Positions 3,883 to 25,008 of a stretch of 25,008 bases of DNA are shown here, one piece after another. The stretch is from the IMG/VR virus record IMGVR_UViG_3300031841_004037, positions 1 to 25,008 of that record, one strand, 5' to 3'. Within the stretch, counting starts at the first letter, position 1, and each line of letters opens with the position of its first letter. The translations under genes and the position numbers were made by a program. The notes under the pieces are model-generated. The model did no database searches and was not told the origin of the DNA. It worked only from the letters and a program-made list of their open reading frames with translations. The DNA is from a virus.

Positions 3883-5412
3883 TTAGAATTCCAGAATAAT
3901 TTTAACGTCTTCTTTTTGTTTAGAGTCTCTCTGAACAATGGGTCGGTTGTCAATGTAAATTATATCCCCTGTCTTTTTATTTATCTCAGGATTTGCCAGT
4001 CCTTCTGTGAAAGTTACATCCAGATTAATTACTTTACCATCACTCGTAGTAATTGTGTTTGTGCCATCCACTGTTGTATCTATACTAACATCAACATTAT
4101 CAACAGTAATACCTTGAGAAGAAACAAAAGAAACTATTTTCTCAGTGTCATTCGAATGAGTTTGATCAATCCCACCATCATAACCATAAGATAATGATCT
4201 GTCCTGATAGTATTTTAAAATCTTAGAATCTTTATCATATGATGCAACATAACCTTTTGCAATTCCAACTCCATCTATGTTTTGAGTTATTTTATCTCCA
4301 ATATTGGGATTAAACTCTGCATTACCATCAATTGCGATTGAATATAAAGAAGAAAAAGTATTTGCTGTATATGTCACTCCGGTTCTTTTTCCGGTGGAAG
4401 AAAAAGTTTCTGGATTTTTTATAACTCCAACTTGTGAAAATTTAGTATCTGTTGGAAAGTCTTTTGTAGAATCATCAAATCTTGCATATAGTAAAACCTT
4501 ATCAGCACCGAGTTCTTGATATATATCAAACCCATGACCTCTTGATGGTGGAATAATAGGTATTAATTTTGCTCCCGTTCCACTGGTTGGCATTTTTATT
4601 GATCCATATGTATATCCATATCCACCATTCGTTACAATTACTTTTGTTATTGTGCCATTTTCTACTGTTACACTAGCAGTTGCTCCAACTCCATCTCCTA
4701 TTATGTCAGCATTAAAACTAGATGTATAATTTGTTCCACCTTGCTCAATATATACGGTTTTAATTTGATTACTATTAGAATCAGAATTTCCCCCATCTCT
4801 AATTGATTGAATTTCAGAATCGGTGCTAGTGGACCAATTATTTGGTAAAGTAATGTATTCGGTAGAATCAAATTTTATAATATCTGCTGGTAATATTTTA
4901 TATAAGTATTTCCATTTATATCCATCACTATAAGAAACGGGTTCTATATCAGTATGATTTGGTTCTTGTGTTGATCCAGAAATAGTGGGACTTGTCCCCG
5001 AAGATCCATTTTCTATACAAATATAAACCTTATATTCACTCGTAACTACATAATAATTTGCACTATATAACCTTTCTGCATTTGATGCTGGAGATGGATT
5101 TCCGTCCCTATAATCATGCCTATACATGTCATAAGGGGTATTTGATATCCAATCGTATTTTTTTACAACTCTTCTAACATTCTCCGATGTTATTTTTTTG
5201 CCAAATAGACTTGTATCTCTATAATGTGACAAATAATCATAATTATCGATAGGATTATTTGCCGTACTAGTATTCCAATCAGTATTCCTACCAAATCCAG
5301 TTGCAGTTGGATTTGATAATCCTAAAAATGCATAATATGAATTATTACTGATAGAATCTACAAAAGAACCGGCATTCAATATTCTAAATTGATCTGTTAC
5401 GAATGCAGCCAT
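3883..5412 (-). CDS. 8: Baseplate wedge subunit gp8
   Basis: A 509-aa homologue of T4 gp8, a structural subunit of the contractile-tail baseplate wedge. The C-terminus GDIIYIDNRPIVQRDSKQKE followed by DVKIILEF parallels T4 gp8 (GEMIYMENRPPI, ending INILFTF). The N-terminal TDQFRILNAGSFVDSI and the GYKWKYLYKI stretch (T4 GYVWEYLFEI) also fit. It is longer than T4 gp8 (about 334 aa). Part of the extra length is a glycine-rich beta module at about residues 225-295 (GDGVGATASVTVENGTITKV, then GGYGYTYG), a type that also recurs in the giant upstream protein. A TATAAATA late promoter lies 18 nt upstream of the ATG. I see no good Shine-Dalgarno sequence. The next gene starts 6 nt after the stop. Confidence 0.92.
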   Translation of the reverse strand: MAAFVTDQFRILNAGSFVDSISNNSYYAFLGLSNPTATGFGRNTDWNTSTANNPIDNYDYLSHYRDTSLFGKKITSENVRRVVKKYDWISNTPYDMYRHDYRDGNPSPASNAERLYSANYYVVTSEYKVYICIENGSSGTSPTISGSTQEPNHTDIEPVSYSDGYKWKYLYKILPADIIKFDSTEYITLPNNWSTSTDSEIQSIRDGGNSDSNSNQIKTVYIEQGGTNYTSSFNADIIGDGVGATASVTVENGTITKVIVTNGGYGYTYGSIKMPTSGTGAKLIPIIPPSRGHGFDIYQELGADKVLLYARFDDSTKDFPTDTKFSQVGVIKNPETFSSTGKRTGVTYTANTFSSLYSIAIDGNAEFNPNIGDKITQNIDGVGIAKGYVASYDKDSKILKYYQDRSLSYGYDGGIDQTHSNDTEKIVSFVSSQGITVDNVDVSIDTTVDGTNTITTSDGKVINLDVTFTEGLANPEINKKTGDIIYIDNRPIVQRDSKQKEDVKIILEF

Positions 5413-5458: not shown

Positions 5459-8400
5459 TTATAAGACTATTTTTGGAATTGCTCCCGTTTTTCTAATACC
5501 AAAACCTCTTCTCTGAATTGTTGGATATGTTGATAAACCAGAATAAGTTTTTCCGGTTACACCTATTGATATTGGATTGGAGGATCTAGTGCCAACTGAT
5601 AATTTACCCCATGAATATTTTCCAACTGGATTTAAAATACTTCCAGTTGTCCCAATACCAATAATATCAGAATCGGATTTTACATTACATGTAATAATAC
5701 CAATGTTGTCATTATTTGACCAATCTGATATACGATAGATATTATCAAAGAACGATGTTCCAATTCCAACAATTGCAGAATCCGAATCAATAATAGAAGT
5801 TACTCCATTGCCAATACGTGTATCAAAAATACAAATTGGATTTCCTGTTGCTATACCACTGAAATAATTTCCAGTAACATCGTGATAAACTTCAAATTTT
5901 AATGCTAAATCAGTTCCAATACCTGGTGCAGTTGTAATCCCTGTTACAATACCGGAAAATCCATTGACAATGGTAAATCCAGTAATTTTTTCATAGTTAA
6001 GATTTGGAGTTTCTGCAAATATTGATGGAGCAACCGTATATCCAAATCCCGAATTGGTAATAGCAACTGAGGAAACACTACCATTTGTTATAGTCGCTGT
6101 CGCAGTTGCAGTTGTTCCTATCCCAACTCCAATATTTGGTGGACTTGTAAATTTTAGAGATATTATTGTTTGATCGGATAGATATCCAGATCCAGAATTT
6201 ACTGTTGTTATTTCACTGACAGTTCCACCAGCACCAATTGAAGCAGTAAATGCGGCAGCAACCGGATTTGTATCTTCAAAAATCAAAGCATCAAATCCTG
6301 TTGCGGTATCATCAGTAAACCCAGTATTTCCATCATTTGATGCAAATGTACCATCTTCATATTCAAATAGTCCCACAGAATCTACAAATATTTCAGTAGA
6401 TGTAATATCAACATCTCCAATTATTTTTGATGTTGGTACGATTAATGGCTCAATAGAATCTCTTGATTTATAAACAAATTCCCCATTTATCTTTTTATCT
6501 TCTTTCTGTTTTGTCCAGGAAAGTGGTTTGTACACCGATTCGTTAATTCCTGGTCCAGAATATCTATTTGTTTCAAACTTATCTGAGAATGCTAAATTGT
6601 AAACAGTTCTTTTATTTTGTGTTTTAGTGTTCTGATCCGTATTGGTACTTATTACCTGAACAATATCTCCAGTTTTTATAGTGGGGAACACATTATCAAC
6701 TACATTAGAATCAGTTCCGTCTATACCTTTATAGAAAAATATATCTATTTCATCTTCGGGCAATGGTGCTGATGCAAACACGAAAGATGTACCACCCTCA
6801 AAAATATAATTAACTCCAGGTTCTTGTATAATTCCATTTATAAAGATTATAAGAACATTATTAATATTTTTTTCAATTTGAGTATTCTTTTCAGTTTCGA
6901 AACTAAGAAGTTCTCCATTATATACGATTGGAAATCTTCTTCTCGTTCCATTTTGATATTGAGATATTGAATCCAAATAATCAAGTTCTCCAAATTCCCA
7001 AGCAGCAAAATTGTCGGAATAAGTATCAACAACAGTAATTGTAAAATCGGATATAGGAGAACTCAAACTGCCATGAGTTACTAAGCCAACTGGTTTAAAT
7101 ACATCACCTCTTTGGAATCCATATCCAGACCTAGAGAACTTAAATTCTTTGACTTCGAATAAAGTAGATCCTATTCCCGTAGTATTCACACCACCAACAA
7201 TAATATCCATTAATAATCCAGTGCCAGTATCAGTTGTTGCGCCAATACCTCTTCTTTCAACTCCAATGATTGGTAAATTCTCATATGAGGGATCGGAAAC
7301 AAAGATTTGCGGGTTGTTATATCCAGTACCACCATCATTATCTACACTAAATGTTAGTGTTCCACCAGCACCTACTGTAGCACTAATGACTGCTACATCT
7401 CCAGTATGTCCCTCCTCAAAGACACTAACACCAATAGAAACTAAACCATTATATCCAGAACCAACATTATCAGTTGTCCCAAGTCCAACAGATACGATGG
7501 ATCCAGCAGCACCAACAACCGCAGTTACAGAAGCTCCTACAAGTGGTGCAAATCCAAGTCCAGGAGTGGAACCATATGATACTATGATGCCTCCTCTAGG
7601 CAATTGATTGAGATTAACATCATAGTCCGAAGTTATATAATCCTCCAATGTATCTGGTCTTTGAACCCCAGAAAAACTTATAGTTGTTATTCCAAGACTC
7701 TTATCTTCTTCAATTTCATAATTAAATTTTGTTGGATTGTTATCAGTTTTTGGTGATTGGTATATACTATTAATGAAAACCAGTCCACTAGCACCTTCAG
7801 TTCCAATTCCTGTTGTGTCGGCACCACCAACTTTTAATGTGTAGGTTTTGCCAATTCCAGTAAATTCATCTGATATATTATCATAAACTTTATTATCATC
7901 GTAATTTGATTTTAAGAAAACTCTTCCATTAAATTTAGAAGTTTCTGCATTAAAATTATTTCTTGTCCTATCAATTTGAGGATTTCCTCTTGGAGGTTCT
8001 GCAAAATGAATCTGATCATCTACAATATTAAATGCTCCTTTATAAACTCTTGCAGTAGTCGTGTCTGTGTGAGTTGATGCGGATGATCCAACAAATCCTC
8101 TCTTAACTTGTACTAAATTTAAAGATCCACCATATTCTATTGGACCAATATTTGTTGTTCCCAGACCCACATTTATAACATTCATATATTCATCATCTAC
8201 CAACAATATATCATTAGGATTAATTGTTGATATCCCACTTAAAGATATAATATCCGTGCTAATTCCAACCTCTCCATCTATATTTCCATCTAATGTATGT
8301 TCTATTTTTGTAAATGCTATTGGATACTGAACTAAACCGTCAATAGAAATAATGCACTTACTATTTCTATTTGCCATTGTAAATCTGTGAGCATTACCAG

Positions 8401-11400
8401 TAGAAATTCCTGTAAATGTTACTGCAGATCCATCCTTTGTTTCTGATACTTTGAATGTATCATTTGTCAGTTTGATGGCGTAAACTGTAGGTTGCAGATA
8501 TCCACCACCACTCTTTTCCATGGAACCTATTCCAACTCCTTCAATAGTAGAACCTGGAGTATAAATTAATTCTTCTCCATTCGCAAAAAAGTGATTTTTA
8601 ATTGTAAATGTTCCGGTTGAAGCATTAAGTTGTGAAGAATCTCCTGGATTAAATGTCTTAGAAAAAATAGGTATATTATCATCTGTAAGTACGAAATTGG
8701 TTTTGTTAATTCTTTCAAGATTAATACCATTATAGAATTTTTCATCAATACTTTCTATAATAGAACCATATTCCAAGTCTCTGTGGTCATTGAGAATATC
8801 TAAATTTTTATACAAAGATTTGCTGAAAATTTCTATATCAATATCACCAGTCATATCAGAATCTGGATAAAATTTCAATATTAAATTATCAGAGGAAACC
8901 TCTGCTCCAAAAGTTCCGATTCCAGAAGATTCATCAAATCCATCTTCATCTTTGGATATAGCCAAAAATGGTAACTGCTGTACGATGATATCAGAACCAT
9001 CATAAACCATCATTGTCTGATGAAGTGCCTGTGTTGCACCCATACTAACCTGAATAATTGATCTTGATGCATCAAACAGTGTTTTATCTATGGATAGTAT
9101 AGTTGTGGATAGTCCTGAAGTTGTTGTAGAAAAACCGGATTCATAAATCGCACTTCTTTCTTGACCATCCAATTGAGCAGATGTATTATATCGATATGTT
9201 CCTATTCCAGTAGTTGTTGTCCCAAAACCAACAATAGTGCTTCGTATTAATAAATCATTTGAGTTACTATTCTCATGGGTTATACTTAAAATGCCATTTT
9301 CTATATTGGAATAAAAAGTTCCTATTTGATTTCCATTAAATCCACTTTTTTCAGATCCATCAACATAATACTCTGACAAGTATGTTGATGTTCCAGCACC
9401 AACAACATATAATTTAGTATAACTAGAATCTAATGTAGTGCGATTTATTATATGTGAATTGATATAGAGGGAGTTATATGATTCAGAGTCTACTGAGATT
9501 ATAGTTGCCGTTCCTACACCAACTGTTGTTCCCAAACCAACAACTGTCGATCCAGTCAAATCAATAAATCCTACAGACTGTGTTCCTATTCCAGACTCCT
9601 GAGAATTAAAGACTTGTCTAATTATTTTTAGATCATAATCACTATTGTATGGATCTTCAGGAACAAATCTTAAAAATGTTTCCCCAAATTCATTTGTATT
9701 TAATTGAAAATCTCCAAATTTATTGTTATCAAATCCATCAGTAGTTCCAATTCCTGCTATTGATTCATTTTCAACAATAAAGTTTTCTTCTCCATCACTT
9801 AGAATGGTAATATCAACTAATTGAATTTCATGATTTTTTTCGGGATTAACTACTCTAATTAAAAAATTGTGATAAGGAATATCATCAATTTCTTCTATAT
9901 TTAAAAACTCGCTTGGTGGTATTTCGGTGCTGGAAAATTGGTTACTAATATCATCAATACTCAAAACATTCATACTCTCTTTTAATTCAGTATAGTTTGT
10001 GAGTTTCTCATTTTTTAATTTCAAGAATTTTGATCTTGATCCCACTACATCCTGATCAATAACTAAATCGAAATTATTAATAGTATCAACTCTATGCTCA
10101 CTTGTCAAATCTTTAATGATGGTGAGTTCATTCGAAAAAGTAGTAAATCTAGATAATGAACTCTTTATTATCTCAGTATCTGCAAAATTTTTCATCCCAC
10201 TTACATGAACTAAATTTTCAACTGGAGATTGTTGATCTCTATATGTAATAGGACTTTTTATCGAATAAGAAAGATTTTGATAATAATCATTATTAGGAGT
10301 TAATTGATAATCTTCACTCAGTTTTCCAGTTTCATTATTCCATCCAATATTTTTTAAGTTAGAATATTTTACATTAAATATTCCGTCATTAGATACTAAA
10401 TCTTTGATAAGTGCTATATTTCCAGAATCATTTCCAATAATTGTTTCTCCAATAGACAAATCATAAAAACCGGAAACTTTCAAAGATGCATCATTGCTTT
10501 CAGTTACTTTTAAATCCCTAATTATTCCATTAGATGATAATTTTTCTCCAACTTTAAATGTGGATGGTTTTTGTAATATTTCAAAAACTGGATAGTCCGA
10601 CTTTTTAATAATTGTTGCACTAAAATCTTGAACTATTTTCGCAGTTCCTATATTTGATGTTAATTGATCAGAAACTTCTATTGTTACAGTGTCATTAACA
10701 CCAGTATTATCATAATTAGTTACCTTTAAAAATCTATATCCATAATCAGATGAATTAAATCCATCACCAATAGATCCTGATTTTTGTATTCCTTCTACAA
10801 AAACTTCATCTCCTTCTTGGAATGGATCTTGTCTAAAAGTTGATATACCAAGAATTGTTGGTGTTGATATTGTACATTTAAAAGTATTTGAAGTTAGAGT
10901 TTCAACCTTTTCTACAGATATTCCATTACTGTTGTTAACTGTAAATATTTCCGTTCCAACATCCGGTAATCCTTTTGGTTCCGAATTGACTCTAGCAGAA
11001 ACTATAGAAGAACCTACAATTGTAAAATCTATTAATCCTGAGTTAATAACACTCCTATCGGAGGAATTTATTAACACATAATCTGGCAATTCAACATATC
11101 CCTTACCTCCACTAATAACGGTGATTTTTTCTATAGTATTTGAATTTTCCAATACTATTGTTGGAGAAGCTAATACTTTAGGTCTTAATGTTTTGTCTGA
11201 AGAATATGTAAATCTATCATTAATTGTTCTCAGTTGACTTATGCTTCCAATTTTTTTGGATCTTGGAATAATAGTTAAATTATCTCCGAAAGAAGAATTT
11301 GTAGACTTTAAAGTTGGAAGTTTTTTATATGAATTTCCCGATGAAATGATATTTAAAGAATTAACGGGTCCAGATGATCCTATTGAAACTGTAGAATATT

Positions 11401-14400
11401 CTAATATATCACATTCTGTAGAAGAATATGAAACTCTTTCTGGAGACTTTGTGAGATTTATATTAAATGTTGTTGTTCCAATTCCACTAATTGTATATGA
11501 ATTATTATATGTACTATCTACATATAGAATTTCATTATTATTAACAACTTCAATGTTACTGGTGCTGATATTTCCAGATTTTTCTAAATTATAATAAAGT
11601 TTATATGGAATAGAAGAATCATATTTGAGTGTTAATGAAGCATCGATAGAAACACCAACCGTTCCTACTCCAGAAACGTTAAATGTTGAAGTTTTTCCAG
11701 TGGACTTAAATTCGTCTTTAAAATTTTCATCCTTATATATTTTAAATTCATATCCTTCTAAACTTGAATCACTTAAATCAAATACTAAATCATTATTTTT
11801 AATTACCTTTATTTGGGGGTTAATTATTGATATTGATTGACTCGATCCCCCAGTATTTGCAAAACTAACTATATTTTTGGTTTTTCCAAATACATCAAGA
11901 TAAGTTTTTCCAAATTCTATATTATCATCATCAACTTTGTGTACAAAATATTCTCCATCATCAACCGGTTTTGTTGAATCATCACTTGAATATAAAATTT
12001 TATCTCCAGTTTCTAATCCATGAGAGTTTAATGTAATGTAGTTAGTAGAAGTACTAATATTTGAAGAACTAAATCCAATCGGATTAAAAACCAATGATCC
12101 CAAAGTATTCAAGACTCTTATAGCAGTTGAAGTTCCTATACCAACACTCAAATTTGGTTGAACATTTAACGTTATACTATCTCCGTTAGAAAGATTATGA
12201 GATGTTGAAACAGAAACTGTAGTTTCATTTTTATCAACATTTCCCAATAATTGAATAAAATTAGATTCTAAAGAATATTTGTCACTATCATCTCCATTAT
12301 CGTGGAAAAATAATTCTTGTCCCCCAATTTCAGTTTTTAATCCAATAATATTTGGACCTTTATTGATAGCAAAAACATTTGATGGTGATGGAAGACCAGT
12401 TGATGATCCCCCGTCTGTAGAAATTTGCAATCCAGTTGTGTCTGATGTGACAACAAGTGGTTGATTTGTTTTAAATGGGTGATTTTCAATGTAAATAGAT
12501 CTTGCAAGAATTTGTCTCGTCTCATTTGTCTCACCAAAAACAAATGATGTTGAATATCCAACACCAGTATTGATACCAACACCTACAGATTCTTTGGGAT
12601 TAAAAAATACTTTATCATTTACTTTAGAATTAAATTCATCTACCGATTTTAGAAATGTAAATGAATCTGGCAAAAATGTGACCGCAGTTCCAACAGTATG
12701 AGATACACCTGTGGCACCTCTCTGAACCCTTAAAATATTTTTATCTCTAAATGATCCCAGAACGCTTAAAGTTTCATTTCCAATAGTAATACTACTTCCT
12801 ACAGATATTTGATTTGGAATTGGAAAAACATATATCTCGGTTGTAAATCCGACAGCAGCAGTGGATAATATTGTAGAGATACATCTTCCCGTGTCATAAG
12901 AAGGGACATTAATTCTATAAGTCCCATTTAAAAATGGTGAACTTCCAAATCCAGATATTGTAACATAATCTAAATTTTTAAAATTATGATATGGTAAAAC
13001 CGATACTTTTATTTCATTTTTAGATTTCCAAGTAAAAACTGAATTAGTTTCGGATATAGAAGTTGTTTCTATATTAGTAATACTTTTACCTTTTACAGAA
13101 GCAACTTCAACTTTTAAACCATTTCCAGATGTTCCTGTATTATCAAAAATAAGTTCATCTCCGACCTTATAATTTTCTCCAGAACTTTGAATATCTATGG
13201 TTTCTATAGGTCCGGATGTTACAGAAACAACTTCAACTTCTTGTCCTAAAACATCACTAGTCTCATTAATAAAATCATAGTCAGAATTCTCTTCAGATAC
13301 TTTATATGGTAGAGTATTTCTTAACAAATTTGAATTATTAAAATCAAAAGATTGGTCTAAATCAGAATCTGAAATTAATTTTGATTTATATACATTTCCT
13401 ATAAAATAAGGAAATTCTTCTGTAGTATGATATGCATAAACTCCATTAGGAAATTCTGGAGTTTTTTCATATCTTCCATTGTATTGATCTAAATCCTTTC
13501 CTGCAGTAAATTTATAATCTTCTACGAAGAAACCATTACTAAATCCAGATGGTCTATCATCAACGTTTGATATATCTAAGACATATCCAGATTCCAATTT
13601 TTTCTTAACAGAATCTCTATTTTCGGGGTCACTATGTCCACGAGAATTATAAATTGGATTTCCGTCATATGCCCATCCAATTATTTTAAGATCACTATCA
13701 TCATCTCCAAAAGATGTTTTTAATTTATCAAAATAACTTAAAACAGAATATTGTAATTTGTCTTTTCCTTTTTGTAGTGATTCTCCCGAAGAAAATCTTG
13801 CAACTTTATCATTAAGTTGTAGTTTTCTTATATTTGAATTAATGATTTGTTTTTTGCCGGAAGGTACTATTTGGATTTTTGTTGTTTCTTGTAAGTATCC
13901 CGTACCGGCATTAATAACTTTAACCTCAGTTATTTGACCATTATTAATTACAGCTCTTAATTCTGCTCCCGTTCCAGATCCAGAAACAATCAAATCTGGA
14001 ACTGAATAGTATTCAATTCCATTATATGCAACAACAACACTATCAATAGATCCATTTACAACAACAGGTTTCAGTTCGGCAAACCTACCATTTTTTACAG
14101 AAATCCTAGGATTCTTTTGATAATTTAATACTGTAGAACCATATCCAGTTCCATTTTCATACAAATACGTATCAATTATACTTCCTTTTACAACAGGAGT
14201 CGTAACTAACTTTTGAGTCTCGGATGTAGTTCCTAAACCTACAGGATTATATTCAATAGAAACTGAAATATCTGGATATTTGAAATATTGATATCCATTA
14301 CCAGTGCTTTGCAAATTTATATAATTTTTTGTTTCATAATTAGATGTTATTGTTCCCCCAATTCCGGCATCACACAACCTAAAAGAATCATTATCAACTT

Positions 14401-17400
14401 TCAATATCTGATATTGATTTGCTGAATTTAATCCAGTTATACTAGTTGTTTCATAATCATATTCTATAATTTCACCATCATTAAAATTATGATTTTTAAA
14501 ATTAATCGTATTTCGAGTTGTAGATATTCCTGTAGGTTTAACAATTAATTTTCTATTAGTATATCCTTCACCTTCATTAAGAATTTTTACGTATGAAACT
14601 TGTTTTTTTGATGCTAGTGTTGAAAATTTATGAAGACCTCCAGTCCCCGTATATATTCCAACGGTGTTAATTCCCGCTTGCTGATCTTCGAGAGTGTTAA
14701 AAAGTGTTATTGCTCTTGCACTATCTACATTGGCATAATATACTGAATCATTTGGTAGTTTGTAATTATTAATTACCGATCCAAGAAGTATAGGATCATT
14801 TCCTAAAGAATTATAGACAATTTGCTCCCCATTTGAAAAATTATGATTTTTTAAAAATAAAATTTGATTAGTGCTTCTTACAACTCCACCACCATTAGTA
14901 AATGATTCCCCATCAAATAAAACTTCTCTAGACTTCTGTACTAATACTGGTTCAATAGAAGCTCCTTTACCATTTCCACCACTTATACTGATAGATGTGA
15001 TATTATTAATATTATAATCCTGAGAGTCTATATATACTTTTTTTAGTGATCCACTAATTACTGGTTGAATTTTTGCAGTATTTCCTGCTCCTACAGCAAC
15101 ATCAATTAAAGGTAGATTAATTACATCAAAATCTTCACCTCCGGATAAAATTTCAGTACTTTCAATGGGTCCATAATATACAAAATCTTTAGATTTATAA
15201 TTACTAATTTCCACACCATTTATTAGCATTCCCGTGTATCCGGGCAAAGTTTCTGTACCCAATCCATTTTCAATATTTTTTTCCAAAGGAAACTTTCTCA
15301 AAATTCCCTGTATTCCAAGATTTTTATCTATTTGAGAACTTAAAATAAAACTATGAGTTCCAATACCAGAACTTGGTTTTTCGAAAGATAAATTGTTTCC
15401 AGATTCTATCAAATTTGGAGAGGCATATAATTTAAAAGATCTTGAATCTTCTGCCTTTTCAACATAATAAAATCCAGTAGAGAGACCAATTAATGGTTCA
15501 CTTTCGGAAGAATAATATACTTTATCCCCAGTAATGAATGGAATATCGGGTCCACTTGCTAATGTTTTAAACTGCGTAAACTTATTATTTGAATCTTTAC
15601 CACCAATATTGTCAGTGTTATTAACATTGAATGCTACAACTGAGGCATCAATCTCATATCTATACAGACCCTTCTCATCTTTTATATCTTTTACATCTAT
15701 AGTCTGTGATGGTAAAGAATTTGATGCCACATATGCATATTCTTCCCCATCTACGTACAAATTCAATACGTCAGATAATATAGAACCACTTTTAAAATTT
15801 TCACCAGATTCTGATGATTTATTTAATTTTCTTCTTAAATCATATGAAGTCTTTATACTTAAATTTGGCCTATTTGTAAGAGTTAAAGTATTTTTTCCAG
15901 AATCAATAGTTTCAATAGAAACAGTACCAGAAGTAGATTTAACTACTGTTTCACTATTTTTTTCTAATATCTCAACCTCATCTCCAAATTTTAAACTGGA
16001 TTTATTAATAATAGATTCTAACTTTATACCCAAGTTTCCACTTTCACCTGTAGTGAATTTGTGTCTTGTACTTGTATTGTAAATCCACGAATTTGAAAAT
16101 ATTTCCTTCCAGTTATTGGAATTATCTTTTATCTTATCACCTATATTTTTAACTAATAAAATATCTCCTTCACTAACTTGAAAATCTTCAGATTCTTCTA
16201 CTATATCATCAGTAACCCCAAGAAGAATTATCTCAACTTTTTTTGATGTGTCTCCATCTTCATATGAAAAATAAGTATCTTCAGATGATACTTCTGAAGT
16301 TTTTGCAAACTCTTTTACTCCAGAACATCCAATAAACTGATTAACAGTTTTTTTGCTATATGAAACTTTATTATTTTCGCAATTAATGCTTCCAGATTCT
16401 GGAAATCCTACAGTAGAATCAACAGTCAATATTGTATCACCTTCATTTGAAGATTCTACTAATTTTGTATTTGGAGTAATAATAAAATTTCCTTGAGTAG
16501 AAGATACTTTATCAGTATTTCCAACATATAACTCAATCTTATAAAAATCTTTTTCCTTTCTAGTAAATTTTTCTATAAAAGATACTGAAGCGTTTGTATT
16601 TAAATCATTACTTTTAAATAAAGTCTGTCCAGATATTTTTAACGGATCTCCTGATATTACTTTTGCAGTACAAACTTCTCTTCTTACATAATTTGCAGAA
16701 GATGGTTTTATTAGATAATTCTCTAAATTTATAATAGATGGAATTTCTCCAAAAATAACTTTAAATAATATTTTTATGGATTCATCTGTACCTTTAGACT
16801 CATAAAAATCTTTTGCTCTTTTTATAAAATTACCAACATCCAGTTTTTCAGATAAAGTAATATCTTCCAAACCAGGAGTAAAAGTATATTTTAATTTCTT
16901 ATAAAATTCTTTTAGAAATAAAGAACTTAAATTTTGAACAGTTGATCCAGCAGAATGTGCTTCTGCAGTGGAAGTGGAAAATACAAGTTCTTCTTGGTTT
17001 AAATCTTGATGATAATCAGTAATTCCACTAAAACCTCTAATACAACCAGTAAAACTATTTGTAGTTAATCCGGTGTATGTAATAATTTCATCGTCGATTT
17101 TAAGAATTCCATATTCATTTGGAAATCCCTTTGTACTAGAGACACTGATAACAGTAGAATCTGATAATAATTCTACTTCTAAAGTCGTATTATCTACAAT
17201 AACTTCTGGTTTTAAGTTATCAACCTTTAAATATTGATCAAGGTTGTCTGTAATATCAGAAGGTCCACCCTGATATTCTTGCGAAATATAATATTGCTTT
17301 AAAAAGTCAACTGTTTTAGGACTTTCGTCCAAAATAAAACTTGGAATCTGGCTATTGATAAGGTCTTGTACCTTTACCTTAGATTCAAATCCAGTCTGTA

Positions 17401-17404
17401 TCAT
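5459..17404 (-). CDS. 7: Giant gp7-like baseplate wedge protein (3981 aa) with repeated beta modules and a YHYH domain
   Basis: One uninterrupted 3981-aa frame between gp6 and gp8, exactly where T4 encodes gp7 (1032 aa), the protein that starts wedge assembly. The gp7 core is at the N-terminus. IPSFILDESPKTVDFLKQYY (about residues 20-40) fits the T4 stretch around DSYLLQDSNFEAF. FIKRAKDFYESKGTDESIKI plus LFKVIFGE (about 193-220) matches T4 FFESRSYDFYSTKGIEASYK plus FLFKVLYNE. Beyond about residue 300 the protein is beta-rich and repetitive: about eight H-x-F-x-x-G-D/E modules, a YHYH domain at about 1238-1341, and many G-I-G-T motifs. At about 3520-3560 comes FINGIIQEPGVNYIFEGG and then DEIDIFFYKG, as in phage fibre and tail proteins. 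The ATG follows the gp6 stop by 1 nt, behind a weak AAGAGA ribosome site. No signal peptide or membrane segment is apparent. The gp7 assignment is strong by core motif and order; the function of the rest is inferred to be host contact or baseplate decoration. Confidence 0.85.
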   Translation of the reverse strand: MIQTGFESKVKVQDLINSQIPSFILDESPKTVDFLKQYYISQEYQGGPSDITDNLDQYLKVDNLKPEVIVDNTTLEVELLSDSTVISVSSTKGFPNEYGILKIDDEIITYTGLTTNSFTGCIRGFSGITDYHQDLNQEELVFSTSTAEAHSAGSTVQNLSSLFLKEFYKKLKYTFTPGLEDITLSEKLDVGNFIKRAKDFYESKGTDESIKILFKVIFGEIPSIINLENYLIKPSSANYVRREVCTAKVISGDPLKISGQTLFKSNDLNTNASVSFIEKFTRKEKDFYKIELYVGNTDKVSSTQGNFIITPNTKLVESSNEGDTILTVDSTVGFPESGSINCENNKVSYSKKTVNQFIGCSGVKEFAKTSEVSSEDTYFSYEDGDTSKKVEIILLGVTDDIVEESEDFQVSEGDILLVKNIGDKIKDNSNNWKEIFSNSWIYNTSTRHKFTTGESGNLGIKLESIINKSSLKFGDEVEILEKNSETVVKSTSGTVSIETIDSGKNTLTLTNRPNLSIKTSYDLRRKLNKSSESGENFKSGSILSDVLNLYVDGEEYAYVASNSLPSQTIDVKDIKDEKGLYRYEIDASVVAFNVNNTDNIGGKDSNNKFTQFKTLASGPDIPFITGDKVYYSSESEPLIGLSTGFYYVEKAEDSRSFKLYASPNLIESGNNLSFEKPSSGIGTHSFILSSQIDKNLGIQGILRKFPLEKNIENGLGTETLPGYTGMLINGVEISNYKSKDFVYYGPIESTEILSGGEDFDVINLPLIDVAVGAGNTAKIQPVISGSLKKVYIDSQDYNINNITSISISGGNGKGASIEPVLVQKSREVLFDGESFTNGGGVVRSTNQILFLKNHNFSNGEQIVYNSLGNDPILLGSVINNYKLPNDSVYYANVDSARAITLFNTLEDQQAGINTVGIYTGTGGLHKFSTLASKKQVSYVKILNEGEGYTNRKLIVKPTGISTTRNTINFKNHNFNDGEIIEYDYETTSITGLNSANQYQILKVDNDSFRLCDAGIGGTITSNYETKNYINLQSTGNGYQYFKYPDISVSIEYNPVGLGTTSETQKLVTTPVVKGSIIDTYLYENGTGYGSTVLNYQKNPRISVKNGRFAELKPVVVNGSIDSVVVAYNGIEYYSVPDLIVSGSGTGAELRAVINNGQITEVKVINAGTGYLQETTKIQIVPSGKKQIINSNIRKLQLNDKVARFSSGESLQKGKDKLQYSVLSYFDKLKTSFGDDDSDLKIIGWAYDGNPIYNSRGHSDPENRDSVKKKLESGYVLDISNVDDRPSGFSNGFFVEDYKFTAGKDLDQYNGRYEKTPEFPNGVYAYHTTEEFPYFIGNVYKSKLISDSDLDQSFDFNNSNLLRNTLPYKVSEENSDYDFINETSDVLGQEVEVVSVTSGPIETIDIQSSGENYKVGDELIFDNTGTSGNGLKVEVASVKGKSITNIETTSISETNSVFTWKSKNEIKVSVLPYHNFKNLDYVTISGFGSSPFLNGTYRINVPSYDTGRCISTILSTAAVGFTTEIYVFPIPNQISVGSSITIGNETLSVLGSFRDKNILRVQRGATGVSHTVGTAVTFLPDSFTFLKSVDEFNSKVNDKVFFNPKESVGVGINTGVGYSTSFVFGETNETRQILARSIYIENHPFKTNQPLVVTSDTTGLQISTDGGSSTGLPSPSNVFAINKGPNIIGLKTEIGGQELFFHDNGDDSDKYSLESNFIQLLGNVDKNETTVSVSTSHNLSNGDSITLNVQPNLSVGIGTSTAIRVLNTLGSLVFNPIGFSSSNISTSTNYITLNSHGLETGDKILYSSDDSTKPVDDGEYFVHKVDDDNIEFGKTYLDVFGKTKNIVSFANTGGSSQSISIINPQIKVIKNNDLVFDLSDSSLEGYEFKIYKDENFKDEFKSTGKTSTFNVSGVGTVGVSIDASLTLKYDSSIPYKLYYNLEKSGNISTSNIEVVNNNEILYVDSTYNNSYTISGIGTTTFNINLTKSPERVSYSSTECDILEYSTVSIGSSGPVNSLNIISSGNSYKKLPTLKSTNSSFGDNLTIIPRSKKIGSISQLRTINDRFTYSSDKTLRPKVLASPTIVLENSNTIEKITVISGGKGYVELPDYVLINSSDRSVINSGLIDFTIVGSSIVSARVNSEPKGLPDVGTEIFTVNNSNGISVEKVETLTSNTFKCTISTPTILGISTFRQDPFQEGDEVFVEGIQKSGSIGDGFNSSDYGYRFLKVTNYDNTGVNDTVTIEVSDQLTSNIGTAKIVQDFSATIIKKSDYPVFEILQKPSTFKVGEKLSSNGIIRDLKVTESNDASLKVSGFYDLSIGETIIGNDSGNIALIKDLVSNDGIFNVKYSNLKNIGWNNETGKLSEDYQLTPNNDYYQNLSYSIKSPITYRDQQSPVENLVHVSGMKNFADTEIIKSSLSRFTTFSNELTIIKDLTSEHRVDTINNFDLVIDQDVVGSRSKFLKLKNEKLTNYTELKESMNVLSIDDISNQFSSTEIPPSEFLNIEEIDDIPYHNFLIRVVNPEKNHEIQLVDITILSDGEENFIVENESIAGIGTTDGFDNNKFGDFQLNTNEFGETFLRFVPEDPYNSDYDLKIIRQVFNSQESGIGTQSVGFIDLTGSTVVGLGTTVGVGTATIISVDSESYNSLYINSHIINRTTLDSSYTKLYVVGAGTSTYLSEYYVDGSEKSGFNGNQIGTFYSNIENGILSITHENSNSNDLLIRSTIVGFGTTTTGIGTYRYNTSAQLDGQERSAIYESGFSTTTSGLSTTILSIDKTLFDASRSIIQVSMGATQALHQTMMVYDGSDIIVQQLPFLAISKDEDGFDESSGIGTFGAEVSSDNLILKFYPDSDMTGDIDIEIFSKSLYKNLDILNDHRDLEYGSIIESIDEKFYNGINLERINKTNFVLTDDNIPIFSKTFNPGDSSQLNASTGTFTIKNHFFANGEELIYTPGSTIEGVGIGSMEKSGGGYLQPTVYAIKLTNDTFKVSETKDGSAVTFTGISTGNAHRFTMANRNSKCIISIDGLVQYPIAFTKIEHTLDGNIDGEVGISTDIISLSGISTINPNDILLVDDEYMNVINVGLGTTNIGPIEYGGSLNLVQVKRGFVGSSASTHTDTTTARVYKGAFNIVDDQIHFAEPPRGNPQIDRTRNNFNAETSKFNGRVFLKSNYDDNKVYDNISDEFTGIGKTYTLKVGGADTTGIGTEGASGLVFINSIYQSPKTDNNPTKFNYEIEEDKSLGITTISFSGVQRPDTLEDYITSDYDVNLNQLPRGGIIVSYGSTPGLGFAPLVGASVTAVVGAAGSIVSVGLGTTDNVGSGYNGLVSIGVSVFEEGHTGDVAVISATVGAGGTLTFSVDNDGGTGYNNPQIFVSDPSYENLPIIGVERRGIGATTDTGTGLLMDIIVGGVNTTGIGSTLFEVKEFKFSRSGYGFQRGDVFKPVGLVTHGSLSSPISDFTITVVDTYSDNFAAWEFGELDYLDSISQYQNGTRRRFPIVYNGELLSFETEKNTQIEKNINNVLIIFINGIIQEPGVNYIFEGGTSFVFASAPLPEDEIDIFFYKGIDGTDSNVVDNVFPTIKTGDIVQVISTNTDQNTKTQNKRTVYNLAFSDKFETNRYSGPGINESVYKPLSWTKQKEDKKINGEFVYKSRDSIEPLIVPTSKIIGDVDITSTEIFVDSVGLFEYEDGTFASNDGNTGFTDDTATGFDALIFEDTNPVAAAFTASIGAGGTVSEITTVNSGSGYLSDQTIISLKFTSPPNIGVGIGTTATATATITNGSVSSVAITNSGFGYTVAPSIFAETPNLNYEKITGFTIVNGFSGIVTGITTAPGIGTDLALKFEVYHDVTGNYFSGIATGNPICIFDTRIGNGVTSIIDSDSAIVGIGTSFFDNIYRISDWSNNDNIGIITCNVKSDSDIIGIGTTGSILNPVGKYSWGKLSVGTRSSNPISIGVTGKTYSGLSTYPTIQRRGFGIRKTGAIPKIVL
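13380..13692 (-). other. YHYH-type domain inside the giant gp7-like protein
   Basis: Residues about 1238-1341 of the giant protein read IIGWAYDGNPIYNSRGHSD, then GYVLDISN, then DLDQYNGRYEKTPEFPNGVY, then AYHTTEEFPYFIGNVYKSK. This order (GxAxDGxPIY, a central LD, then Y-x-Y-H and FPYxIG) is the pattern of the YHYH domain family, found in secreted and surface bacterial proteins and as inserts in giant marine phage proteins. Its molecular function is not known to me. Confidence 0.7.
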
Positions 17405-22147: not shown

Positions 22148-22330
22148 CTATGCTGTTAACAACCTGCGAATGTCTCTCTCTATTTGATTCAATGAGTGAC
22201 GGCAGGAAGGTGTTGCTGATGTAGAAATTTTCTTTCCTGTGTGATGCCTCCAAACTAAATGACGTTTCGAACGATGTAACTCAAACCCATGAGATTTCAT
22301 GAGTTTGGTGAGTGCTTTCTGATGTTTCAT
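22148..22330 (-). CDS. HicA-like toxin / mRNA interferase family protein (60 aa)
   Basis: HicA proteins are small dsRBD-fold ribonucleases that cleave mRNA with a catalytic histidine. This 60-aa protein has the family layout: helix (KHQKALTKLMKSHGF), strand with the key motif RSKRHLVWRH, strand (GKKISTSA), then helix (LNQIERDIRRLL). H24 in RHLVW is at the same position as the catalytic His of E. coli HicA in NHLKL. The length matches. No HicB antitoxin is visible on either side, so it is an orphan; cyanophages carry such genes and may use them against host mRNA or as a diverged RNA-binding protein. Its ATG overlaps the stop of the ligase-like gene (ATGA), so the two are translated together. 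Confidence 0.7.
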   Translation of the reverse strand: MKHQKALTKLMKSHGFELHRSKRHLVWRHHTGKKISTSATPSCRHSLNQIERDIRRLLTA

Positions 22331-23238
22331 GATGCAACGGAGAACTTAGAATTGTTGAAGTTAGCAACACTGAAACGTTGACGATCTACCAGTTTGAATG
22401 TTCCGAACTCACTGTCCATAACGTAACCCTCTGCAGAAATTTCATCCTGCCCAATGAACGCACGAGGTCCAACATTGCGACACTGATTCAGCAATTCTTC
22501 CTTCAAAACTATCATCAACCCATACAGGTGGCAGAGATTAGCATTGCCCAGGAAATCGTCGTCTGTGAGTGCCCAACCGTTACGCAGGGCACTGTTAACA
22601 TTTTGCTTGATTTGCTTTGCTTCTTTATCAGTCACGAACTCAGTCTTAGACATCACCTCACGGATCAAATCTACGATCGGGGGAATCTCAAACCCATCCG
22701 CACCTTCGAAATAAGAACCCGACCAAATGTAGGTCTTAGGTTTCACGAACTTACAGTAAAATGTGTCGGTGATGATGAACTTCATCGGGAACGCAATTGC
22801 ACCCCTTAAATCATCATCAGCAATGTAGAAGGTGTGAGGTGCAACGATGATTTCCTGAGAGATTACCTCATCGAACTTGTAGGTGATTGTGTTCGGGGTA
22901 TACTCATCAGATCCACCGAATCCGATAAAATCCCCTTGGAAAATGCCATTTGAATGAGGCAACCAATCAAAACAAGAGTGCAGAATTGTTGCAACTTCAC
23001 CGACGTGGTTCGCATCAATTTCCTCATGAGATTCGTTGATTTTGATTTTAACTTTGTTGAAGACAGATTTGGTGCCAACGAAGAAGTTTCCGGTGGCAGG
23101 ATTAGTCCCCCAAACGATTGCCGGGGCACCATCAATCTTGGTAGAAAGATTAATCTCAGACTTGAGAGATTGCAGGAACGAAGTATCACCTGTGAGGATG
23201 GTATCTTCGGGGTGTTCGATGTGAAGGTTTTGAGTCAT
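22327..23238 (-). CDS. Ligase/nucleotidyltransferase-like protein (303 aa)
   Basis: It shows the motifs of covalent nucleotidyltransferases (DNA/RNA ligases): motif I KIDGAPA with K34 as the candidate AMP-bound lysine, a motif III-like GIFQGDFIGFG (residues 98-108), PNTITYKF soon after, motif IV AEGYVM (E270, G271), and motif V FKLVDR (K282). The stretch after motif I (NFFVGTKSVFNK) resembles a phage family of unknown function that I know as DUF6267-like. ATP-dependent RNA or DNA end joining is inferred, not shown. I chose the ATG at 23238 over one 24 nt upstream, because the longer form adds only a low-complexity FSFFFFI stretch. No clear ribosome site precedes either. The end overlaps the HicA-like gene by 4 nt. 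Confidence 0.68.
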   Translation of the reverse strand: MTQNLHIEHPEDTILTGDTSFLQSLKSEINLSTKIDGAPAIVWGTNPATGNFFVGTKSVFNKVKIKINESHEEIDANHVGEVATILHSCFDWLPHSNGIFQGDFIGFGGSDEYTPNTITYKFDEVISQEIIVAPHTFYIADDDLRGAIAFPMKFIITDTFYCKFVKPKTYIWSGSYFEGADGFEIPPIVDLIREVMSKTEFVTDKEAKQIKQNVNSALRNGWALTDDDFLGNANLCHLYGLMIVLKEELLNQCRNVGPRAFIGQDEISAEGYVMDSEFGTFKLVDRQRFSVANFNNSKFSVAS

Positions 23239-23293: not shown

Positions 23294-23653
23294 TCAAGCA
23301 AGAAGAAGATCGTTGGAAAGAGTGCCCAGTTTCATAGAGTTACGAAACTCAGTGACAAAGAACTCAGTGCCATTGTAGAGACGAATGAACCACTCATAGT
23401 TCTTCTGGAATACACTCTCACCTGCGATTGCGTGTTCTGAAAGAATAGCATTCAGACGGGATTTGGTGGTTGCAGATTGATAACCACCGTCCCACAAACG
23501 AACTCCGAAGTCACCAACTTCTGCAATCTTACCACCGTGGAGATACACTGTGGAAGTGTTAGTTTCAGGGTCGAAAGTAACAGCAGTGTTACCAGATTGC
23601 CAGTTGATGCTGTTAGTGATAGCATCGTTCATCTGCTGTTCGATCTTACGCAT
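23294..23653 (-). CDS. Conserved hypothetical protein (119 aa)
   Basis: The product (MRKIEQQMNDAITNSINWQS, then VTFDPETNTSTVYLHGGKIA, then EVGDFGVRLWDGGYQSATTK, then SRLNAILSEH ... VFQKNYEWFIRLYNG) resembles a small protein family common in cyanophages and not functionally assigned. It is beta-rich with a C-terminal TEFRNSMKLG. The ATG at 23653 is used: the frame's earlier codons would start at a TTG inside the promoter -10 box. Its leader, from promoter A, is about 50 nt. It is the first gene of the operon that continues with the ligase-like and HicA-like genes, unless the hairpin at 23267-23283 stops transcription. Confidence 0.82.
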   Translation of the reverse strand: MRKIEQQMNDAITNSINWQSGNTAVTFDPETNTSTVYLHGGKIAEVGDFGVRLWDGGYQSATTKSRLNAILSEHAIAGESVFQKNYEWFIRLYNGTEFFVTEFRNSMKLGTLSNDLLLA

Positions 23654-23708
23654 GAGAGAGAATAGAAAGGGACTGGGGTCGTGGGGGGTGTGCTCCCCTC
23701 CACTCCTA

Positions 23709-23773
23709 TACAATACACGGTTTTAGGGGTCGTGCCAAAATCGTGTGACACCTATTCGATCGTCCACCCGCGG
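23709..23773 (-). repeat. Promoter cassette, copy A
   Basis: This segment shares its layout with 24381-24444: TACAATACACG, TTTT, GGGG, TCGTGCC, then TGTGTGACAC and, 15-16 nt later, CCGCGG (plus-strand reading). GTGTGACAC is a 9-bp palindrome around a central G. Both copies lie upstream of a small-gene operon and contain its promoter. Confidence 0.7.
23710..23738 (-). promoter_or_regulatory. Sigma-70-like promoter A
   Basis: On the minus strand: -35 TTGGCA, 17-nt spacer, -10 TATTGT. The predicted start is near 23703, about 50 nt before the ATG of the 119-aa gene. The spacer sequence itself is conserved with promoter B (GCACGACCCC at its -35 side), which is unusual for plain promoters and suggests an extra factor. 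Confidence 0.65.
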
Positions 23774-23776
23774 CTC

Positions 23777-23808
23777 CGATTCTCAATAATAAAAATACTT
23801 GAGAATCG
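23777..23808. repeat. 10-bp perfect inverted repeat between two small operons
   Basis: CGATTCTCAA and TTGAGAATCG pair perfectly around a 12-nt AT-only-but-one loop (TAATAAAAATAC). It lies 13 nt after the stop of the 66-aa gene and upstream of promoter cassette A. It may act as a terminator-like hairpin or 3' end stabiliser, though no U-run follows on the minus strand. A protein-binding site is another option. Confidence 0.6.
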
Positions 23809-23820
23809 ACACGGTTAGTG

Positions 23821-24021
23821 TTAACGAAGAGGTTGCAGTTTCACAACCTCAGGCACACTATGATCCTCCCTCACAGTGTGAATGTGAAAGTGAAGATTGT
23901 TGCGTTGGCATATTGCAATTGCCTCTTCTTTACTGGCACTAATGTATGCCAACTGATCACGCATAATGTGACCATTAGGACGTTCAAAACGACCGGAGAT
24001 GATGAACTTAGTTTCTTGCAT
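23821..24021 (-). CDS. Small hypothetical protein (66 aa)
   Basis: The product (MQETKFIISGRFERPNGHIM, then RDQLAYISASKEEAIAICQR, then NNLHFHIHTVRED) has the pattern of a small alpha/beta fold: strand, strand, helix (KEEAIAICQRN), strand. I do not recognise a named family beyond similarity to small cyanophage ORFs. Its ATG shares one base with the TAA of the previous gene (TAATG), so translation is coupled. It is the last gene of the operon from promoter B. A strong inverted repeat follows the stop. Confidence 0.75.
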   Translation of the reverse strand: MQETKFIISGRFERPNGHIMRDQLAYISASKEEAIAICQRNNLHFHIHTVREDHSVPEVVKLQPLR

Positions 24022-24173
24022 TAGTCGTAGGGAAAGAATGAGGAACGGGTTGAATCTGTAGTGTAGGGGATGTCATAATCCTCCCCAAACATTTGATAGT
24101 AGAGTTCACTGAAGATGGCAAAATCATCAGGTGTTTCGCCATTCCAGATTTTGAGGATTTCTTCGTAATTCAT
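24021..24173 (-). CDS. Small acidic hypothetical protein (50 aa)
   Basis: The start at ATG 24173 is 1 nt after the TGA of the preceding gene and has a GGTGAG ribosome-like site. The product MNYEEILKIWNGETPDDFAI followed by FSELYYQMFGEDYDIPYTTD is strongly acidic, with two short helices likely. An upstream in-frame ATG would add MHTLHSSVSD but overlap the previous gene; I prefer the shorter form. The function is unknown. Confidence 0.72.
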   Translation of the reverse strand: MNYEEILKIWNGETPDDFAIFSELYYQMFGEDYDIPYTTDSTRSSFFPYD

Positions 24174-24174
24174 A

Positions 24175-24342
24175 TCACTCACCGAAGAATGCAAAGTGTG
24201 CATCGAGGACGAAATCTATCACCTCATCGGTAGCACTCACGTCGAAACGTTCGCAATACCAATCGACTGCCATTTCTGCAGATGCCATAGTGTCGAACAT
24301 AAAGTTCTGGAGTTCAGTGAGACGATCGGTTTCGATTGCCAT
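24175..24342 (-). CDS. Small hypothetical protein (55 aa), first gene after promoter B
   Basis: The product is MAIETDRLTELQNFMFDTMA, then SAEMAVDWYCERFDVSATDE, then VIDFVLDAHFAFFGE; it looks all-helical and acidic, with no membrane segment. The frame extends upstream to an ATG at 24375, but that codon coincides with the expected transcription start of promoter B and would need a leaderless message; I prefer 24342. No strong ribosome site is visible for either. The next gene begins 1 nt after the stop. The function is unknown. Confidence 0.68.
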   Translation of the reverse strand: MAIETDRLTELQNFMFDTMASAEMAVDWYCERFDVSATDEVIDFVLDAHFAFFGE

Positions 24343-24380
24343 TGTGCAGGGATCTTTGAAGGTGGTTTTGTTCATGTGTC

Positions 24381-24444
24381 TACAATACACGATTTTGGGG
24401 GTCGTGCCCATTTTGTGTGACACTTAGGCAACCGGTCGCCGCGG
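24381..24444 (-). repeat. Promoter cassette, copy B
   Basis: A second copy of the cassette at 23709-23773, with the same order of blocks: TACAATACACG, TTTT, GGGG, TCGTGCC, TGTGTGACAC, then CCGCGG after 15 nt. The differences are mostly single bases, while the surrounding genes are unrelated, so the shared blocks are not carried over from coding sequence. Confidence 0.7.
24382..24410 (-). promoter_or_regulatory. Sigma-70-like promoter B
   Basis: On the minus strand: -35 TGGGCA, 17-nt spacer, -10 TATTGT. The predicted start is near 24375. It drives the 55-, 50- and 66-aa genes. The GTGTGACAC palindrome (24415-24423) lies 4 nt beyond the -35 box, a position suited to an activator or repressor. 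Confidence 0.6.
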
Positions 24445-24448
24445 CCAA

Positions 24449-24634
24449 TCAGTTTGTATCACTTTCCTCCAAAATGTGTGGGTAGTATTCTTTCACCTCT
24501 TCTAGCAATTCTGCGTCCGAATACTTATCATAACTTTCACTCATGTTATCGTAAAGAATTGCCATCATAGTTTTGATGTCCATATCATCCAGGATTTGCT
24601 GGATCATGTTGTCTTGAAGTTCAGAACGATTCAT
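24449..24634 (-). CDS. Small acidic hypothetical protein (61 aa)
   Basis: The product MNRSELQDNMIQQILDDMDI, then KTMMAILYDNMSESYDKYSD, then AELLEEVKEYYPHILEESDT is helical and acidic, and resembles a small cyanophage protein family without known function. Its ATG is 1 nt after the TGA of the 67-aa gene, without a ribosome site of its own. It is the last gene of the operon from promoter C. Only 4 nt separate its stop from the CCGCGG edge of cassette B. Confidence 0.78.
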   Translation of the reverse strand: MNRSELQDNMIQQILDDMDIKTMMAILYDNMSESYDKYSDAELLEEVKEYYPHILEESDTN

Positions 24635-24635
24635 G

Positions 24636-24839
24636 TCAGTTAGCGGGAAAGTTTTTGCAGACAGCATCACACAAGGTGCGGATAAGATTCTCACAATCCT
24701 CGGGATATTCGTCACCCCAAGTTGCAACGAAGAATTCCTCTACGATACAATCAATGTCCTCCATAAGTTGTTCACGTTGGGTCAACATTTCCAGATTAGT
24801 GTTCATTTTGGAATAGGTGAAAGTTGATACGAAAGACAT
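24636..24839 (-). CDS. Small hypothetical protein (67 aa)
   Basis: The ATG at 24839 shares a base with the TGA of the previous gene (TGATG), which supports this start; the next ATG, at 24806, would give a 56-aa form that begins with MNTNLEML. The core LMEDIDCIVEEFFVATWGDE followed by YPEDCENLIRTLCDAVCKNF looks helical with three cysteines, and similar small proteins occur in cyanophages. The function is unknown. The start choice is uncertain. Confidence 0.72.
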   Translation of the reverse strand: MSFVSTFTYSKMNTNLEMLTQREQLMEDIDCIVEEFFVATWGDEYPEDCENLIRTLCDAVCKNFPAN

Positions 24840-24973
24840 CAATAATCAGTATTTCCGTTGATGTAACCTTCTACGTCAAACTTATCATCTTTCTCCCATT
24901 CTTCTTTCCACTCAATGACATCGAAGATCTCACCGGGAGCATCTTGAATTTCAGACCAGAGTTCATCAAACAT
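24839..24973 (-). CDS. Small acidic hypothetical protein (44 aa), first gene after promoter C
   Basis: The ATG at 24973 has a good ribosome site (CAGGAA, 8 nt spacing) and lies about 18 nt after the predicted start from promoter C. The product MFDELWSEIQDAPGEIFDVI followed by EWKEEWEKDDKFDVEGYING is very acidic and tryptophan-rich for its size. Such short acidic early proteins in phages often bind host proteins, but nothing specific can be claimed here. The stop overlaps the next ATG. Confidence 0.72.
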   Translation of the reverse strand: MFDELWSEIQDAPGEIFDVIEWKEEWEKDDKFDVEGYINGNTDY

Positions 24974-24997
24974 GGTGCAATTCCTGACGACTTGATA

Positions 24998-25008
24998 ACA
25001 ATACACGA
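24998..25008 (-). promoter_or_regulatory. Promoter cassette copy C, cut by the right end
   Basis: The last bases, ACAATACACGA, repeat the -10 side of cassettes A and B (minus strand TCGTG then TATTGT). The expected -35 box and palindrome would lie beyond the window. A gene with a good ribosome site starts about 18 nt downstream of the expected transcription start, as predicted. Confidence 0.55.

Follow-up and report, generated by a model that had tools for sequence, protein, structure and literature searches.

A repeated promoter-like cassette with an upstream dyad precedes small-gene modules in T4-like cyanomyoviruses

Introduction

Why should unrelated small genes of one virus be preceded by nearly the same stretch of intergenic DNA? 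This question is raised by the viral record IMGVR_UViG_3300031841_004037, which was analysed in its entirety as one window of 25,008 bases, there being no further genome sequence. About half of the window aligns to Synechococcus phage S-SKS1 at 77.7% identity, and its final 3 kb carry small genes on the minus strand, like the 146-169 kb region of S-SKS1. Judged by this similarity, the 25-kb window comes from a T4-like cyanomyovirus close to S-SKS1. The original prediction for this locus was that a single promoter cassette is repeated in front of several mini-operons, and that it serves either a regulator shared by the gene set or the shuffling of genes by a mobile cassette.

Results

Copies of the cassette in the window

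The repetition of the cassette was borne out. The two complete copies match without gaps at 39 of 46 positions (23709-23754 versus 24381-24426), the chance expectation for such a pair within the window being about 6e-8. Both copies are on the minus strand at a distance of 672 bp, and they are indeed sited similarly before unrelated small genes (Table 1). The third copy proposed at the window edge is also present, its first bases being TCGTGTATTGT at 24998-25008; in four relatives (L005, L048, L037 and L051) the full copy 3 and a stem-loop are found beyond the position of the edge, and its spacer and -10 box occur at the same place. The starts first estimated at 23703, 24375 and 24991 are identical to the predicted +1 sites computed here.

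Table 1. Features of the cassettes and of the genes around them in the window
Feature	Positions	Strand	Remarks
Gene after copy 1	23294..23653	(-)	Kyanoviridae Gp96 family (PF23790), phrog_554
Copy 1 -10 box TATTGT	23710..23715	(-)	Predicted +1 at 23703
Copy 1 weak -35-like TTGGCA and conserved spacer CGACCCCTAAAACCGTG	23716..23738	(-)	GCAC at 23732-23735
Copy 1 proximal half-site TGTCACA of upstream dyad	23744..23750	(-)	CACA conserved in cassettes
Copy 1 CCGCGG block	23768..23773	(-)	Variable among relatives
Copy 1 stem-loop CGATTCTCAAG...TTGAGAATCG	23777..23808	(-)	10 bp, no U-tract; between upstream gene and promoter
Mini-operon 2, third gene	23821..24021	(-)	66 aa
Mini-operon 2, second gene	24021..24170	(-)	50 aa; not in relative L005
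Gene after copy 2	24175..24375	(-)	66 aa, phrog_10297; ATG exactly at predicted +1
Copy 2 -10 box TATTGT	24382..24387	(-)	Predicted +1 at 24375
Copy 2 weak -35-like TGGGCA and spacer CGACCCCCAAAATCGTG	24388..24410	(-)	GCAC at 24404-24407
Copy 2 proximal half-site TGTCACA	24416..24422	(-)	
Copy 2 CCGCGG block	24439..24444	(-)	Variable among relatives
Mini-operon 3, last gene	24449..24634	(-)	phrog_1352; L005 alignment breaks across gene
Mini-operon 3 gene	24636..24806	(-)	phrog_2584
First gene after copy 3	24839..24973	(-)	44 aa
Copy 3 -10 box TATTGT	24998..25003	(-)	Cassette cut by window edge; predicted +1 at 24991

Some of the proposed parts of the cassette had to be revised. Shared -35 and -10 boxes had been described; the -10 box and the spacer are conserved, but the -35 is weak in both copies. 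A -35/-10 scan by itself found 12 sites against 9.0 +/- 3.1 expected, which is not above chance. A plain sigma-70 scan would not single the cassettes out; the evidence for them is their repetition and conservation. The CCGCGG block is present in both copies as claimed, but corresponds to a variable GCCGCSG-type stretch in the relatives. The palindrome GTGTGACAC did not hold up as a conserved unit, as relatives carry GTGGCACAC or CCTACACAC in its place. It belongs to a longer, 24-bp dyad, of which it forms the half next to the promoter. Of the distal half-site, copy 1 keeps a degenerate form (GTGGAC) and copy 2 nothing, and we class the window copies as a subclass with a degenerate distal half. 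Because they retain the proximal half only, the full dyad would not be required everywhere.

The mRNA from copy 2 is predicted to be leaderless, because the ATG of the gene that follows coincides with the predicted +1. An ATG exactly at this position was observed in 15 of the 133 distinct cassettes of the census described below, copy 2 included, and in 14 of these 15 the downstream protein belongs to the same family (judged by eye). In most of the remaining cassettes the ATG is 15-23 nt farther downstream.

Other minus-strand frames of the window were noted in passing. One of them is a single open frame of 3981 aa (5459-17404), presumably a structural or fibre protein. A DUF6267 protein (22327-23232; PF19782, E=6e-78) contains a stretch, KIDGAPAIVWG, which resembles the KxDG motif of nucleotidyltransferases and ligases, and a 60-aa ORF (22148-22330) shows a weak likeness to HicA toxins (Pfam E=0.0029, below the cut-off; phrog_2053 E=5e-13).

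Census of cassettes and the upstream dyad

The search of relatives for further cassettes, by pattern scans of viral contigs and phage records (126 records matched, nearly all of them cyanophages), yielded 133 distinct cassettes, three false loci having been discarded. CACA, the spacer end AAAATCGTG and TATTGT are nearly fixed across the census; the invariance of GCAC and of part of the -10 box is partly ascertained, as both were search criteria, whereas CACA was no criterion and is nevertheless conserved to at least 98% at each of its positions, directly upstream in the 133 cassettes. TGTG was found at -31 of the alignment in 40 cassettes, which defines the dyad TGTGNCA-N10-TGNCACA, followed 27-29 nt downstream by a TANNNT -10 box. 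A scan of viral contigs for the dyad with GCAC matched at least 120 contigs, and among the 125 dyad matches listed TANNNT was exactly in register in 103, where about 2 are expected (1/64). A conserved -35 TTGACA with a 16-18-nt spacer, the canonical sigma-70 pattern, was not found in 150 promoters of the family, the mode being 3 of 6 matches to TTGACA. A sigma-54 reading of TGGCAC was also considered and dropped, there being no TTGC at the proper distance; cyanobacteria are not known to have sigma-54.

The dyad is spread over several cyanophages. When the dyad plus a -10 box at 27-29 nt was counted, GCAC not being required, Syn9 held 11 (0.1 in Markov controls), S-SKS1 9 (0.2), the first 50 kb of S-PM2 6 (0.1), P-TIM40 13 (0.7) and P-HM2 6 (1.2); S-RIM8 gave only 3 full hits. 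Six strong copies of P-TIM40 are clustered at 50.3-55.0 kb among small genes. A strict profile, with GCAC and exact spacing obligatory, had no match in Syn9, although relaxed searches do find the element there, and the published early promoter of S-PM2 (5322-5350) is without it. The element is phage-specific: among 84,980 cellular genomes its full form was observed in none but two short contigs, both from the same Sphingobacteriales MAG (L209 and L210; JAAXIF010000060.1 and JAAXIF010000029.1). L209 shares similarity with 253 cyanophage records and is therefore most likely a phage contig binned by mistake.

Possible readings of the dyad

The reading which we consider fairly probable is that the cassettes of T4-like cyanomyoviruses are promoters of the host RNA polymerase with an upstream dyad for a dimeric protein, and act as recombination sites as well. 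They would drive blocks of small, probably early, genes, and would consist of a -10 box (TATTNT or TATAAT), a weak or absent -35 and the dyad, that is, two TGTGMCA half-sites separated by about two turns of the helix, with the centre near -52. With TGTGMCAVT as both of its half-sites, the dyad is most likely bound by a dimeric DNA-binding protein. This protein, either host-encoded or carried in the virion, would recruit the polymerase and co-regulate the set. The proposal of a shared regulator stands in part: a conserved dyad at a fixed distance from the -10 box does precede many small genes in several cyanomyoviruses, which suggests a regulator, while the regulator itself is a prediction. In S-SKS1 and S-RIM8, the proteins annotated as 'transcriptional regulators' gave no Pfam match.

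Palindromic half-sites would suit a dimeric repressor no less than an activator, and the proximal half-site is directly upstream of the -35 region, as if the dyad were an operator at which, for example, an early-made phage protein shuts the promoters before middle transcription. We regard this as unlikely: the -35 boxes are poor, as expected of activator-dependent promoters, and the fixed distance between dyad and -10 box suggests contact with the polymerase, whereas repressor operators tolerate more varied positions.

The cassettes might instead be strong sigma-70 promoters of the ordinary kind that were duplicated within the genome, their upstream similarity reflecting recent shared descent without a dedicated regulator. 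The -10 boxes fit the host sigma, and copies within a genome do share phage-specific stems and spacers. But the -35 is not kept, and the dyad is held at a fixed distance in distant phages with different spacers (Syn9, S-PM2, P-TIM40 and P-HM2), which makes this explanation improbable.

A role of the upstream inverted repeats at the RNA level, where they would terminate or process the preceding transcript as hairpins, is very improbable for the dyad itself. Its variable pairs have no excess of Watson-Crick combinations (65 vs 58.4, 33 vs 41.7 and 57 vs 64.4 expected) and therefore its symmetry is not that of an RNA stem, a candidate that was rejected. A general spacer hairpin was rejected as well, the folding z being below -1.5 in just 19% of spacers. 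What speaks for such a role are stem-loops of 10-12 bp with paired variants upstream of many cassettes, and terminator-like hairpins between dyad and -10 box at some sites of S-SKS1 and S-PM2. Of 128 cassette upstream regions, 36 hold a stem of 8 bp or more without mismatch, compared with 53 of 1540 random control stretches, and paired stem variants such as CGATTCTCAA/TTGAGAATCG and CCGTTCTCAATA/TATTGAGAACGG occur; relatives carry paired variants of the copy 1 stem. It is likely that an RNA role fits this separate stem-loop and not the dyad. In the dimeric-protein reading the stem-loop, where a cassette has one, would separate the cassette from the preceding operon. Copy 1 carries such a 10-bp stem-loop and copy 2 does not; since no U-tract follows, termination by stem-loops of the copy 1 type is only a guess. 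An Rfam search found nothing.

Hairpins were also noted within S-SKS1 cassettes (locus L010). At 158962 (-) and 159646 (-) a strong 10-bp hairpin is placed between dyad and TATAAT, and at 161443 and 152992 a T-run hairpin occupies this place, so that terminator and promoter overlap.

Gene-content changes and probable shuffling at cassettes

Gene content was found to change at cassettes, as had been proposed, in the form of whole-module indels with breakpoints in register inside cassettes. Whole modules differ between L028 and each of L016, L006 and L002, between L026 and L013, and between L054 and L004; the breakpoints fall at equal offsets (within 3 nt) in two cassettes, with flanks 83-99% identical, although alignment resolves a crossover no finer than the repeat length and recombination between repeats also predicts breakpoints within repeats, wherever these lie. 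Relatives differ by modules of a single gene; the breakpoints lie, for example, at +15/+15 between L002 and L028, and at +31/+31 between L028 and L006, with flanks 97-98% identical. A blast count of breakpoints (3894 vs 1057) is heavily pseudo-replicated and was not used as support.

Gene neighbourhoods are much less conserved at cassettes than at other junctions. At cassette junctions, pairs of loci with a shared downstream gene also share the upstream gene in 16% (198/1263); where junctions with gaps of 60 nt or more lack a cassette, the share is 53% (548/1028). The locus pairs are not independent, so this comparison carries no p-value, and hyper-variable early regions may show low adjacency regardless of cassettes. 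The promoter core is more similar within one genome (0.76 vs 0.60) and the leader more similar before the same gene (0.68 vs 0.45), a pattern that would arise if copies were exchanged between promoter core and leader. Between the window and L005 there is a difference across the gene at 24449-24634, and one of its breakpoints falls at position -21 of copy 2. A second difference, at small gene 24025-24173, has its breakpoints at the gene ends, away from any cassette, and cassette shuffling is therefore not the sole mechanism.

These findings are consistent with a process in which several near-identical copies, in direct orientation in each genome, would allow recombination within or between phages, and exchange between copies would insert, delete or swap entire promoter-plus-gene modules. 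The suggestion of a mobile cassette survives in this respect, as the module indels and low adjacency support shuffling, while nothing suggests that the cassette moves on its own. A self-mobile promoter element is hardly credible even though each genome has several near-identical copies, as no target duplication was observed and no intact empty site that had taken up a copy, the copies precede genes, and what was found to differ is the entire module lying between two copies, which recombination explains.

Discussion

A new early-gene element, conserved in T4-like cyanophages, was reportedly described in Syn9 and P-TIM40 by Doron et al. in 2016 (ISME J). The dyad and -10 box occur upstream of genes in both of these phages, and since both carry the dyad, the cassette is probably this same element. 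The module shuffling, the leaderless start and the spacing statistics come from the present analysis.

The cassettes also resemble the promoter-early stem-loops (PeSLs) of T4-type phages (Arbiol et al. 2010; Comeau et al. 2014), to which gene shuffling among T4-like phages has been attributed (PMC4503421). Both are repeated units between the small genes of a variable region, and in both the gene content changes at the units. PeSLs combine an early promoter with a stem-loop; the cyanophage units have a conserved -10 box and unit structure, with the promoter predicted from sequence. Unlike in PeSLs, the most widespread feature of the cyanophage cassettes is the upstream dyad, the -35 is weak, only part of the cassettes have a stem-loop, and the hosts are marine cyanobacteria. 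In S-PM2 there are only scattered PeSL candidates, too sparse to explain its gene gain (PMC4503421); the stem-loop at 11369-11391 named in that work sits between a dyad half-site and TATAAT.

With a predicted upstream protein box in place of the -35, the cassettes are similar to T4 middle promoters (MotA box plus -10), but the MotA box is near -30 without a long dyad, whereas the cassette dyad is centred near -52. Cyanomyoviruses are without motA and/or asiA (PMC5780444, PMC2984593), and their early transcription is thought to rely on unmodified host polymerase (PMC2984593). The intergenic repeats of halovirus HF2 are likewise promoter-bearing repeats of a tailed virus (PMC8707807); they differ in being archaeal TATA-type promoters of unrelated sequence.

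Tentatively, and as a possibility that falls short of being probable, one dimeric activator, of host or virion origin, may read the 24-bp dyad across Synechococcus and Prochlorococcus cyanomyoviruses and switch on their early genes; the same cassettes would be recombination joints at which host-takeover genes are traded, and at least one of the promoters would make a leaderless early mRNA.

With their early genes cyanophages take control of the most abundant photosynthetic cells, and for most of these genes no function is known. A recognisable promoter unit would flag early operons in the contigs of uncultured phages, and its defined 24-bp target could serve to fish out the regulator. The cassettes would also offer a concrete mechanism for the fast turnover of takeover genes.
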